Assembly (NCBI GenBank): GCA_031082225.1 | Contig: JAVHLG010000003.1 | Coordinates: forward strand, 1-64,000 | Length of the DNA: 64,000 bases | Direction: 5' to 3' | Source: Desulfovibrionaceae bacterium | GTDB lineage: Bacteria > Desulfobacterota > Desulfovibrionia > Desulfovibrionales > Desulfovibrionaceae | Shown here: in pieces, positions 2,029-6,570 of the stretch | How the letters are laid out: each line of letters opens with the position of its first letter | How positions within the stretch are numbered: position 1 is the first letter of the stretch | The notes under the pieces: model-generated | Told to the model about the DNA's origin: nothing | Database searches by the model: none | What the model saw: the letters and a program-made list of their open reading frames with translations, nothing else | Translations under genes and position numbers: made by a program

Positions 2029-2109
2029 TCGAAACCCGCCTATGCGGATTTCGAAAAACAAGAATGCAAGATGCTTCTTTTCTCCTAAAAAATACTGGCG
2101 TATTTTTTA
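2029..2109 (+). repeat. Two-hairpin intergenic repeat, copy A
   Basis: Two hairpins in a row. The first is GC-rich: TCGAAA and CCGC (2029-2039) pair with GCGG and TTTCGA (2044-2054) with one mismatch. The second is a pure A/T-type stem: TAAAAAATAC (2086-2095) and its exact complement (2100-2109) around a tggc loop. The same order, GC hairpin then A/T hairpin with a 4-base loop, is seen in the tandem repeat at 5276-5795. Copy A lies 13 bases past the stop of the minus-strand ferritin-like gene, so it could also act as its 3' end. Confidence 0.6.
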
Positions 2110-2121
2110 AGGGATTGGGCA

Positions 2122-2655
2122 CTAGGCCCCGTCGAGCCCCGAGCCTTCCTTTTCCAGGTGCCAACCCTGGGGATCCTCGAAATAGTAGCGGGTGTCCGAG
2201 AGCAGGACGTGAAAGCCGCGCTGATCCCGGATCATCTCCACCAGAAAGGCCTTTTCCACAGGATCCGTGACCCGGGCCAGATGGTCGTGGAAAAACCGCA
2301 GGGCCGCCAGTTCCGCGTCGATGGCCGCCGCAAGCGCCCCGACCACGGTCATGCAGGCCGCCGAGCCGGGCGGCATGCCGGGAACCAGGGTGGAAAAAAC
2401 GCCGCGCATACCTGCGGGTTCGTCGTCGCGCAGTCGGCAGGCCGCCTCCCAGTCCTTGCCGGCCTGGAGGTTCCGATAGACCTCCTCGATGTGCGCCCGC
2501 TGTTTTTTCTTGTCGGCCATCAGCCGCTCGAAGACCTCGCGGCCCAGGGCCTCGGGGCAGTCGGCCACGGCCTTGGCGTAGAACCCCACGGCCTTGTCGG
2601 CCAAATCCAGGGCCTGGCACAACATCTCTTGGGAAGGGGGGGCAGTATCCGGCAT
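2122..2655 (-). CDS. Ferritin-like (rubrerythrin-related) protein
   Basis: This 177-residue protein has two helical half-repeats of the ferritin-like or rubrerythrin kind: one around LADKAVGFYAKAV with KKKQRAHIEEV, one around AELAALRFFHDHL with RDQRGFHVLL. Each half keeps the histidine, but the glutamate of the usual ExxH iron-binding motif is not in place (KQRAH and QRGFH), so the di-iron site may be altered or absent. There is no rubredoxin-type Cys4 tail. The ATG at 2655 follows GGAGG. It lies 79 bases after ferritin and desulfoferrodoxin on the same strand and may share their transcript, which suggests a part in oxygen or iron stress. Function is inferred from fold and context only. Confidence 0.75.
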   Translation of the reverse strand: MPDTAPPSQEMLCQALDLADKAVGFYAKAVADCPEALGREVFERLMADKKKQRAHIEEVYRNLQAGKDWEAACRLRDDEPAGMRGVFSTLVPGMPPGSAACMTVVGALAAAIDAELAALRFFHDHLARVTDPVEKAFLVEMIRDQRGFHVLLSDTRYYFEDPQGWHLEKEGSGLDGA

Positions 2656-3971: not shown

Positions 3972-4508
3972 ATGAACATACCCCGCCCGTTGTTGCTTAG
4001 CCTGGCACTGGCCACGGCCCTGAGCATGGCCGTGCCGGACACGGGGCGGGCCGAACCCGCGCCGTTTCCCACCACCATCGGCATCCGGGACGTGAGCCAG
4101 CCTCCGTCGCCGGGGCGCGACCCCGTGCCCTTTACGCCCAAGCCCCAAAAACCATCCCGGCCCGGCAGCCGGAAACCCGCCAAGCCGCAAAAAACGGCCG
4201 CCGCGAAACCGGCAGCGCCGACCCAAGCCCGGCCCCAGGTCCAGGCCGCGCCTGCGCCAGCGCCGCAACGGCCCCAGGTCCAGGCCGCGCCAGCGGCAAT
4301 CCTGCCGACGCCTGAGGAACTCAACCGGAAATATTCCGCAGTCAATGAAAGCCTGTCGCCCCTGGCCGTGGGCCCGGTTCCGGCCCCGGCCCCGGCGTCG
4401 GCCCAGGGAGCGACTCCGGCCCCGACGCCCTCTTCCGGGCAGACAACCCCGGCCGCCGCACCAGGCCCCAATATGGCGGAACCCGCTGCCACGCCGCCAT
4501 TGCCCTGA
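3972..4508 (+). CDS. Secreted proline/alanine-rich protein, unknown function
   Basis: A 178-residue protein with a clear signal peptide (residues 1-27, MNIPRPLLLSLALATALSM, cut after GRA). The mature part is low-complexity: runs rich in Pro, Ala and Lys, and a short internal duplication RPQVQAAPAPAPQ / RPQVQAAPAA encoded by a near-exact DNA repeat around 4230-4300. A more ordinary segment, LPTPEELNRKYSAVNESL, is in the middle. No domain is recognised. It may be a periplasmic spacer protein. The ATG at 3972 was chosen because it opens the signal peptide; an upstream frame from 3885 lacks one. It precedes the FlgO-like gene in the same direction. Confidence 0.65.
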   Translation: MNIPRPLLLSLALATALSMAVPDTGRAEPAPFPTTIGIRDVSQPPSPGRDPVPFTPKPQKPSRPGSRKPAKPQKTAAAKPAAPTQARPQVQAAPAPAPQRPQVQAAPAAILPTPEELNRKYSAVNESLSPLAVGPVPAPAPASAQGATPAPTPSSGQTTPAAAPGPNMAEPAATPPLP

Positions 4509-4554
4509 TGTCGCCGCCTGGAAATCCAGACATCCGGATGCTGCGATCAACACA

Positions 4555-4600
4555 ATGAAAATATGGAATTTTTGCTAATACATACGGGCATATTTTTCAT
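4555..4600 (+). repeat. A/T hairpin, possible relative of the two-hairpin repeat
   Basis: ATGAAAATATG (4555-4565) pairs with CATATTTTTCAT (4589-4600) with one extra T. The right half, ACGGGCATATTTTTCATGG, resembles the right half of the A/T hairpins at 2100-2112 and 5421-5432. It is 39 bases upstream of the FlgO-like gene and may be part of its leader or end the gene before it. Membership of the family is uncertain. Confidence 0.35.
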
Positions 4601-4639
4601 GGAACGCAACACGAGGCCATCCACACAAGGGGCATTCCC

Positions 4640-5317
4640 ATGCACAGAGTCCACACGCAACGACTCCGCGCCGTGACGCCAGCCTGCGCGGCATGCTTCG
4701 CGGCAATACTTCTGGCGATCCTCCTGGCCTCGGCCCCGGCCATAGCCAAAGGCCCGCCTCCGCCGCCTCCCCGCTATCCCGAGGTGGCCATGGCCCTGGC
4801 CGACGACCTGGACCGCCAGGCCGCGCCGCGCCTCGGGATCGGATTTCCGGACAATTCCCGGGGACTGTACTGGGTGGTGGTCACGGTTCCGGCGCAAGCC
4901 GACGATCTGGAGGCGTCCTCGGGGCTGGGGCGGCTCATGGCCCAGGAACTGTCCTGCGCCCTGGTGGCCAGGGGCTACAATGTGCAGGAGATCCGCAAGG
5001 CCTCGGAGATCGCCTTTGACCGCACCCAGGGCGAGTTCATCCTCACCCGGGACACCCGGGCCCTGGCCAGACGCCACGTCACGGCGACCCTGGTGGTGGC
5101 TGCGACCTATACGGTGTTGCCGGGGGAGGTGCGGTTCAACGTGGAGCTCATGGACGCCAGGAACAACAACATCGTGGCCATGACCAGCCGCAGTCTGGCC
5201 AAGACCCAGGAGGTGGCGGCGCTTTTGGGACGTTCCGGGCTTTCCGCCGTGGGGCCGACGGTGTCCACAGTGGATGCGGCGTCCTTCCAACGGGAGATGC
5301 TGCCCTCTCTGCGATAA
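4640..5317 (+). CDS. FlgO-like outer-membrane protein
   Basis: The 225-residue protein has a signal peptide (hydrophobic stretch about residues 18-33, cut near IAKG) and then a FlgO-type domain (about residues 45-190). In Vibrio, FlgO is an outer-membrane protein of the flagellar H-ring; many homologues have no known flagellar link. Here no flagellar gene is nearby, so the family name is as far as the evidence goes. The ATG follows AAGGGG. The last codons (ASFQREMLPSLR) form the first unit of a degenerate tandem repeat that continues for about 480 bases past the stop. Confidence 0.75.
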   Translation: MHRVHTQRLRAVTPACAACFAAILLAILLASAPAIAKGPPPPPPRYPEVAMALADDLDRQAAPRLGIGFPDNSRGLYWVVVTVPAQADDLEASSGLGRLMAQELSCALVARGYNVQEIRKASEIAFDRTQGEFILTRDTRALARRHVTATLVVAATYTVLPGEVRFNVELMDARNNNIVAMTSRSLAKTQEVAALLGRSGLSAVGPTVSTVDAASFQREMLPSLR

Positions 5318-5795
5318 CCGCCCCGCTTTCCTGCTGACGCGGGAAACGGCCGTTCCCGGAAGGATCGGCCGTTTAGCTGTTGACGAGGAGAAAACCGGTT
5401 GTTTCATTAAAAACACTGACGTGTTTTTATGGTGTGGTTTCGGCCTCCTTCCAGCGGGAGCTGCTTCCGTATCTGTGTCGCAAGATCTATTTCTCTGCTG
5501 TCACAAGAAACGTACGTTCCCGGAAGGAAGCGGCTATTTTGGCGGATTTTGAGAAGGAAACCGATTGGTTCCTCAAAATAGCGGCGTATGTTTTCTGGGG
5601 CGGGTGCGAAACCCTTTCGACGTGAACGGCCCCTTGTTGACGTTGATAGCTCTGTTTCTCTCCTGTCGCAAGAAACGACCGCCCCCGAAGGGAACGGCCG
5701 TTTCTAAGCTTCACGAGGAAGAAGGCAGCTTCCATTTAACAAAACGGACCTGTTTTTCATCACGGCTGGACGATTCCGCTTTCCAGCCGAGGCGG
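5276..5795 (+). repeat. About 165-base degenerate tandem repeat overlapping the FlgO-like gene end
   Basis: Three diverged units and the beginning of a fourth fill the 497-base gap and the last 42 bases of the FlgO-like gene. Unit starts are near 5276, 5440, 5605 and 5770. Units 1 and 2 match at 29 of 36 bases in the coding tail (5276-5311 with 5440-5475) and 20 of 22 around the GC hairpin (5343 and 5507). Each unit has a coding-tail-like part, a GC hairpin (AAACGGCCG at 5344-5352 with 5366-5374; degenerate at 5507 and 5672-5704) and an A/T hairpin (AAAAACAC at 5409-5416 with 5421-5428; then near 5575 and 5741). Later units do not keep an open frame with a start, so no gene is called. Confidence 0.8.
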
Positions 5796-5814
5796 GCACA
5801 TCGCCCCAGAGGGA

Positions 5815-6303
5815 TCAGGCCTCGAGCACCTTGCGCAGTTCATCCTCTTTGTCCTTCGTCAGGGAGGTCCGAAGGATCTTGCCCTTGCCCGCGAACGCCT
5901 TGAGGTCGTCCAGAACCTTGTCCGCCGTCATCTTGCGAACCAGGACAAACAACGCGGAATTGCCCGGTTGAAACGACCCGGCCATGTCCTTCATCATCGT
6001 ATCGTCGATGCCGATGTCCGCGAGTTTGCCGGAAACGGCCCCGGCGCCGGCCCCAACGGCCAGGCCCAACAGCGGATTGAAGAAGATCATCCCGATCAGC
6101 ATGCCCCAGAAGCCGCCGCTTAAGGCCCCCATGGCGGTCAGGTTCACGGCCTGATGCAGCTTGATCTTGCCTGCGGCGTCCTTGGTCACGACCACGACGT
6201 CATCCATCTCGATCAGATATTCCTTCTGCAGTTTGGCCAGTTCGGACCGCATCTCGAACGCGGTATGCTCGTCATCAAACAACACGGCGATCAGATCACT
6301 CAT
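5815..6303 (-). CDS. DUF1269 family protein
   Basis: A 162-residue protein of the DUF1269 group. The N-terminal 60 residues form a small alpha/beta part (DLIAVLFDDEHTAFEMRSEL), followed by a glycine-rich hydrophobic hairpin (about 70-105, with GMLIGMIFFNPLLGLAVGAG) and a C-terminal charged part ending KDKEDELRKVLEA. The glycine-zipper segment suggests membrane contact. Biochemical role unknown. The ATG at 6303 follows AAGGAG. It stands alone between repeat-rich intergenic regions. Confidence 0.8.
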   Translation of the reverse strand: MSDLIAVLFDDEHTAFEMRSELAKLQKEYLIEMDDVVVVTKDAAGKIKLHQAVNLTAMGALSGGFWGMLIGMIFFNPLLGLAVGAGAGAVSGKLADIGIDDTMMKDMAGSFQPGNSALFVLVRKMTADKVLDDLKAFAGKGKILRTSLTKDKEDELRKVLEA

Positions 6304-6382
6304 CTGTGGCTCCTTTTCGTGGGCTGACGGTTTGTCAAAACGATGCGGGCGTTGCCCTGCGCCGCCTCGCGCAATACCTACA

Positions 6383-6445
6383 GACGGACTTTGGCGGCAA
6401 CATGATGAACTCGTTCCTTTTAAAAACCGACGTCTTTTCCAAGGG
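6383..6445 (+). repeat. Degenerate two-hairpin repeat, solo copy
   Basis: This stretch aligns with the last part of unit 2 of the tandem repeat: CGGACTTTGGCGG here and CGGCTATTTTGGCGG there, then TCGTTCCTTTTAAAAACCGACG against TTGGTTCCTCAAAATAGCGGCG, both ending in a run of T and GGGGC. The hairpins are worn. It lies in the 267-base gap between lon and the DUF1269 gene, which has no gene of its own. Confidence 0.45.
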
Positions 6446-6570
6446 GCGCAATCCTCGTGTGATGTTCCACACATAAGCCTGTGTTTCGCTTGGCCGAAAG
6501 CAGTGTTTCAAAGCCCTTGCCTGGAAGCCACGACCACAGCACAATACCCCGTTATTTACAAAACGCGGCA

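Follow-up and report, generated by a model that had tools for sequence, protein, structure and literature searches.

Why should the last codons of a protein-coding gene recur several times in the DNA behind it? The question is raised by a FlgO-like gene at 4640–5317 (plus strand) of the window, by which we mean the whole stretch of 64,000 nucleotides from a Desulfovibrionaceae bacterium that was analysed here. The gene is an open reading frame of 225 amino acids with a Pfam FlgO domain (PF17680, E = 2.3e-25) and a signal-peptide-like N terminus, and the repeat derives from its 3′ end. An initial annotation had described a worn tandem repeat with a fixed period of about 165 bases, beginning within the last codons of this gene and carrying two hairpins per unit.

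A tandem repeat that begins inside the FlgO-like gene

The array at the FlgO-like gene is a true repeat. It spans 5270–5764 and has three units of 164–166 bp, all on the plus strand and delimited by alignments. Unit 1 (5270–5433) consists of the last ~14 codons of the gene with the stop codon, a GC hairpin and an A/T hairpin element. Unit 2 (5434–5598) has a copy of the gene tail that lost the stop codon. Unit 3 (5599–5764) is the most worn. A copy of the FlgO coding tail, with about 48 nt of coding sequence, is present in every unit. Whole-length alignments between units gave local scores of 134.5, 86.5 and 110, compared with shuffled means of 26–28 (maximum 44–54; z = 22, 13 and 15), and the pairwise identities were 66%, 56% and 60%. 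The fixed period was borne out by a comparison of the array with itself, where identity peaked at offsets 164, 165 and 329. Similarly, a repeat search returned three 55-nt copies spaced by 164 and 165 nt. Tandem Repeats Finder did not detect the array in the window, because the units are too degenerate. A search of the same genome for the array elsewhere returned the FlgO-like locus only.

Part of a fourth unit had also been proposed for the window. We found instead that the DNA after 5764 is single-copy and is followed by a convergent DUF1269 gene (5815–6303, minus strand; PF06897, E = 7.1e-38), which bounds the array. A fourth unit exists in the sister species.

Hairpins within the array

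The GC hairpin of unit 1 lies at 5344–5374 (plus strand; AAACGGCCGTTCC/GGATCGGCCGTTT). Its predicted folding energy was −20.8 kcal/mol in unit 1 and −16.9 kcal/mol in unit 3, whereas unit 2 has lost it. The A/T hairpin element of unit 1 (5383–5434, plus strand) has its stem-loop at 5409–5428 and a G-rich right flank. An nhmmer model built from other loci, with the FlgO copies left out, placed this element in a dispersed family (E = 2.2e-6) and still recognized the decayed element of unit 2 (5569–5604, plus strand; E = 0.022). It had no match at E ≤ 10 to the relic at the end of unit 3 (5737–5766, plus strand), which was identified by a column-by-column match. Only unit 1 retains an intact A/T hairpin; those of units 2 and 3 fold no better than shuffled sequence. 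The two hairpins per unit of the initial annotation were thus confirmed in unit 1, while unit 2 has neither intact and unit 3 keeps the GC hairpin only.

The initial annotation offered three interpretations: a remnant of gene-end amplification, a transcript-stabilising array or a small-RNA source. The last two would make the array a selected 3′-end device, i.e. a series of terminators or transcript stabilisers placed between convergent genes, or a source of small RNA. In favour of such a device, the array lies between convergent genes, the predicted fold of its 498-nt region is more stable than that of shuffles (z = −4.5), units 1 and 3 and the last unit of the sister species each have a strong GC hairpin, and the A/T hairpin covaries across its family. 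However, the hairpins of unit 2 have decayed in both species, as have most of the older hairpins. The covariation of the GC hairpin did not exceed that of shuffles, so selection on this hairpin was rejected. A terminator-consensus scan gave no site at the array. An intrinsic terminator has a GC stem followed by a T run, whereas only three T follow the GC hairpin in window units 1 and 3. Rfam covariance models had no match at E ≤ 1 within 4500–6500, and a known RNA family was rejected as the identity of the array. We consider a selected device quite unlikely; the remaining hairpins may end transcripts incidentally.

We also rejected the GC hairpin as a common terminator of the genus: in the 0.86 Mb sampled, intergenic ACGGCC..GGCCGT near gene 3′ ends occurred only in this array. 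A hairpin resembling that of unit 1 sits just 3′ of an open reading frame in another genus (L035).

The same locus in related genomes

When related genomes were searched downstream of FlgO-like genes, as the initial annotation had proposed, the array was found at the same place in the sister species, a congener (G002). There it has four units and is 83% identical to that of the window. Units 1 and 2 of the sister are 96% identical over 98 nt, and its units 3 and 4 correspond to window units 2 and 3 (86% and 84%). A tree of the units paired these orthologues (W2-S3 and W3-S4) and joined S1 with S2. The sister genome is in two contigs, which argues against assembly error as the source of the arrays. 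The third congener (G001) has a FlgO-like gene with a single tail, no repeat, no hairpin and a different downstream gene; the empty state at FlgO is that of this one relative, which differs in 22% of FlgO residues. Our sample of the genus comprised these three genomes. The array was found in two of the 247 family genomes searched, both in this genus. No comparable repeat was present in the FlgO neighbourhoods counted for other genera (minus-strand L005, L006, L009, L018 and L020 were left out of the count).

It seems that at least three units predate the split between the window and sister species. Most simply, the sister would later have gained a fourth unit beside the gene; otherwise, the window species would have lost the equivalent unit. 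The worn copies are gene-distal and the fresh copies gene-proximal, which suggests that the array grows at the gene side. This order, with the youngest unit proximal, has a chance of about 1 in 6 under random duplication.

Orthologous units are 81–86% identical between the two species, about the same as the fourfold-degenerate sites of neighbouring genes (78–85%). The array thus evolves at about the neutral rate, which also speaks against a selected device. It has fewer indels than some intergenic regions nearby.

One could suppose that the array is what remains of whole tandem FlgO copies deleted down to their ends, as FlgO coding sequence opens each unit. However, the coding sequence in each unit goes back no further than the last ~14 codons, both species have a fixed period of 162–166 bp, and six unrelated genes have the same pattern. 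We rejected a whole-gene remnant on account of the fixed period and the absent upstream coding sequence, and regard it as practically excluded.

The same layout at other genes

We surveyed tandem repeats overlapping gene ends in 2.4 Mb of the sister genome and in the window. Among 1665 gene ends tested for a downstream copy of their last 75 nt, 12 exceeded the 99.9% background level, compared with 1.7 expected. Six further genes share one layout with the FlgO-like gene: gene tail with stop codon, short spacer, A/T hairpin, G-rich flank and the gene tail again. They are an AcrB-type pump, a glycosyltransferase, dapB, a protein kinase with an Lcl_C domain, mrpF and one gene of no assigned identity on contig C95. 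Names were given by Pfam. The pump, glycosyltransferase, dapB and kinase arrays were read base by base in the window genome and the sister; the mrpF array is in both species and the C95 array in the window genome. Gene-end copying around a short hairpin occurs at at least seven places in the genus, FlgO included. The six other genes uphold the claim that a hairpin element and the 3′ end of the FlgO-like gene were duplicated jointly, and gene-end amplification proved the best of the three interpretations offered. This core of the earlier interpretation stood, and the sequence gave no support to its transcript-stabilising and small-RNA options.

The number of gene ends varies between species. 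The window genome, the sister and the third congener have three, four and one at FlgO, two, three and one at the pump, three, three and one at the glycosyltransferase, five, two and one at dapB, and three, two and one at the kinase, respectively. There are three in each of the two species at mrpF and three in the window genome at C95. The third congener has a single tail without a hairpin at all four non-FlgO sites compared (pump, glycosyltransferase, dapB and kinase). Gene tails at the array loci are 24–125 bp long and the units 73–177 bp. In six of the seven loci, n tails go with n−1 hairpins, and the last tail passes into the native DNA downstream; the exception is FlgO, which has a hairpin relic after the last tail.

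The mrpF array (L266 and L270, around 1400–1650) separates mrpF from the next Mrp antiporter gene in both species, apparently within an operon. A strong terminator at this position would do harm, which is a further point against a 3′-end device. Repeats were what drew attention to five of the seven loci. The mrpF arrays of both species, the C95 array and an array at 1758 kb of the sister genome came from a hairpin pattern search that was blind to tails and repeats.

A dispersed hairpin family with two classes

The element of the arrays is about 45–55 bp long and comprises an AT-rich arm, the stem-loop AAAAAYAC-NNNN-GTRTTTTT and then about (C)ATGGGGCGG. A pattern search for the stem-loop with its G-rich flank returned 13–17 matches per genome, compared with 0–2 for the reversed pattern. 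Within the family the stem shows covariation (24 double-changed cells versus 6.6 in shuffles; 0 of 500 shuffles). Its pairing has thus been maintained there, though it is decaying inside the old FlgO units.

By reading the flanks, we assigned the hairpins to two classes. Class I has CTT..AAGGGACG flanks and includes most of the dispersed relatives. They are MITE-like, and the clearest copies are AT-rich elements of ~110–120 bp with inverted ends TGTCGCGTCC/GGACGTGACA and flanking CTAG. Class II, the array type, has CAT..ATGGGG-type flanks and lacks the class I inverted ends. DNA to the left of the hairpin was repeated on its right above background in 13 of 15 class II hairpins and in none of 17 class I hairpins. 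A Fisher test (5e-9) was based on labels made by hand and included orthologous loci twice; the direct test of flanking duplication is the better one.

Class I copies do occur alone 3′ of genes. The window has the right end of one at 2071–2125 (plus strand; nhmmer E = 1e-8, three mismatches to the CTAG-ended form), outside any repeat and without flanking duplication. The MITE-like form had no match in plasmids or phages. A scan of 2.46 Mb for a parent insertion sequence with matching ends gave weak pairs only.

Several minor observations concern this family. Weak candidates for hairpin relatives were seen in the window at 4582–4603 and 6419–6449. The intergenic regions 1892–2121, 4509–4639 and 6304–6570, which hold hairpin relatives, are largely absent in the sister, as mobile insertions would be. 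A class I copy in another genus of the family lies directly at the TAG stop codon of a DUF1269 homologue (L118, 1390–1480), and its position suggests that class I elements are drawn to gene ends by CTAG at the stop codon. The 1758-kb array of the sister (L232; G002, 1758.27–1758.53 kb) has three tandem MITE-like elements at ~103-bp spacing; their right flanks are of class II, and the last of them has a CTAG end.

Origin and spread of the arrays

We think it probable, with some reserve, that the FlgO array goes back to an old gene-end duplication associated with a hairpin, that it was later enlarged by slippage or unequal exchange under near-neutral evolution, and that events of this kind have recurred in the genus. 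A short hairpin element would come to sit just 3′ of a gene, between direct copies of the last 24–125 bp of that gene. The gene tail and the element would then act as a tandem unit, and copies would be gained and lost by unequal recombination or replication slippage. As the upstream copy leaves the protein intact, the array would be tolerated. Most likely, the array itself is a by-product whose evolution is close to neutral.

We infer that the element arrived and the first duplication formed in one event, and that changes in copy number thereafter were due to unequal exchange or slippage between units. The count of n tails and n−1 hairpins agrees with insertion in a single step, accompanied by a long flanking duplication. 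The array-type hairpin could in that case be a mobile element related to the CTAG-targeting MITE, which inserts near gene ends, copies 24–125 bp to both sides and multiplies in place. We regard such a mobile element as rather unlikely. If true, this would mean that bacteria have a new kind of insertion process, in which a DNA hairpin integrates with target duplications of this length.

Ordinary microhomology slippage would need no special insertion step. A hairpin, either a MITE remnant or a terminator, would first lie 3′ of each gene; replication would pause at it, the nascent G-rich end (GGGGCGG) would re-anneal with G-rich sequence close to the gene end, and the interval would be recopied. 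Slippage is promoted by hairpins, as is generally known, and MITE-type hairpins are found alone 3′ of genes. Moreover, the right flank of the element and the start of the gene copy share G-rich similarity at the junction, as in the pump (CCATGGGGAC/CCGTGAGGGC) and dapB (GGGGCGG). However, duplicating a tail together with its hairpin predicts equal numbers of both, whereas six loci are one hairpin short and their last tail runs into native DNA. The absence of duplication at all 17 MITE-type hairpins is also unexpected. This origin is possible but doubtful, and hairpin-associated duplication remains the explanation that we prefer.

Comparison with known repeats

Most known bacterial repeats of gene 3′ ends follow a tRNA or rRNA gene. 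These tRNA-linked repeats (TLRs), whose function was long unknown, repeat 18–19 bp of the tRNA or rRNA gene, as in the 178-bp repeat of E. coli tyrT and the rrn TLRs (PMC8144298). We confirmed the 178-bp spacing of the tyrT array. The TLRs of E. coli are the closest in layout: there too a gene 3′ end and a spacer recur downstream in tandem, and tyrT is similar in scale and copy number. As in TLRs, the repeat includes the 3′ end of the preceding gene, with a tail in every unit. In contrast to TLRs, the genes here encode proteins, the tails are 24–125 bp long (~48 nt of coding tail in FlgO) rather than 18–19 bp, and each unit carries a common hairpin element.

MIRUs are repetitive sequences of 40–100 bp over 41 locations in Mycobacterium (PMC2734929). 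Like MIRU-VNTRs, the arrays are intergenic tandem units of variable copy number (3 and 4 at FlgO, 5 and 2 at dapB, 2 and 3 at the pump, 3 and 2 at the kinase). Compared by their description, MIRUs have the same repeat at dispersed loci, whereas here only the hairpin of ~50 bp is common, and the bulk of each unit is the tail of the local gene, which differs from locus to locus. Prokaryotic MITEs (PMC10969869) resemble the class I relatives, which are ~110–120 bp long and AT-rich with terminal inverted repeats (TGTCGCGTCC...GGACGTGACA) and flanking CTAG. The array-type elements lack terminal inverted repeats and are flanked by host duplications of 24–125 bp instead of short target-site duplications. 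MITEs thus cover class I and not class II.

In the open-access literature, we found no description of this combination of gene end and hairpin. A TLR-like layout behind protein genes occurs at seven loci of one genus with one type of hairpin. The empty site in a congener and the change of copy number between the sister species make the origin of gene-end repeats testable: whether hairpin or duplication came first, and whether an enzyme took part. The variable loci could serve for strain typing, and the tail copies are a warning for annotation, as they could be mistaken for gene fragments.

CRISPR arrays also have n repeats with n−1 inserts and grow by duplication of the target. The likeness is one of topology only, and we claim no homology: the inserts here are one hairpin family and the repeats are gene ends.

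Other repeats

At least two genes of the sister genome have tails duplicated downstream without an A/T hairpin: a MoaA-like gene (L154, 12185–12336) and another gene (L144, near 1360–1511). Tail duplication can thus happen otherwise in the genus. At L108 (5832–6063), two 104-bp copies, 97% identical, lie 3′ of a gene and have a related A/T hairpin inside, with no copy of the gene tail. In the first sample of strong tandem repeats from the sister genome, most of the others are within coding sequence. A repeat of about six 141-bp units with 80% identity (L161, 7142–7954) was called non-coding by a simple gene finder; it probably encodes a repeat protein, because its period is a multiple of three.
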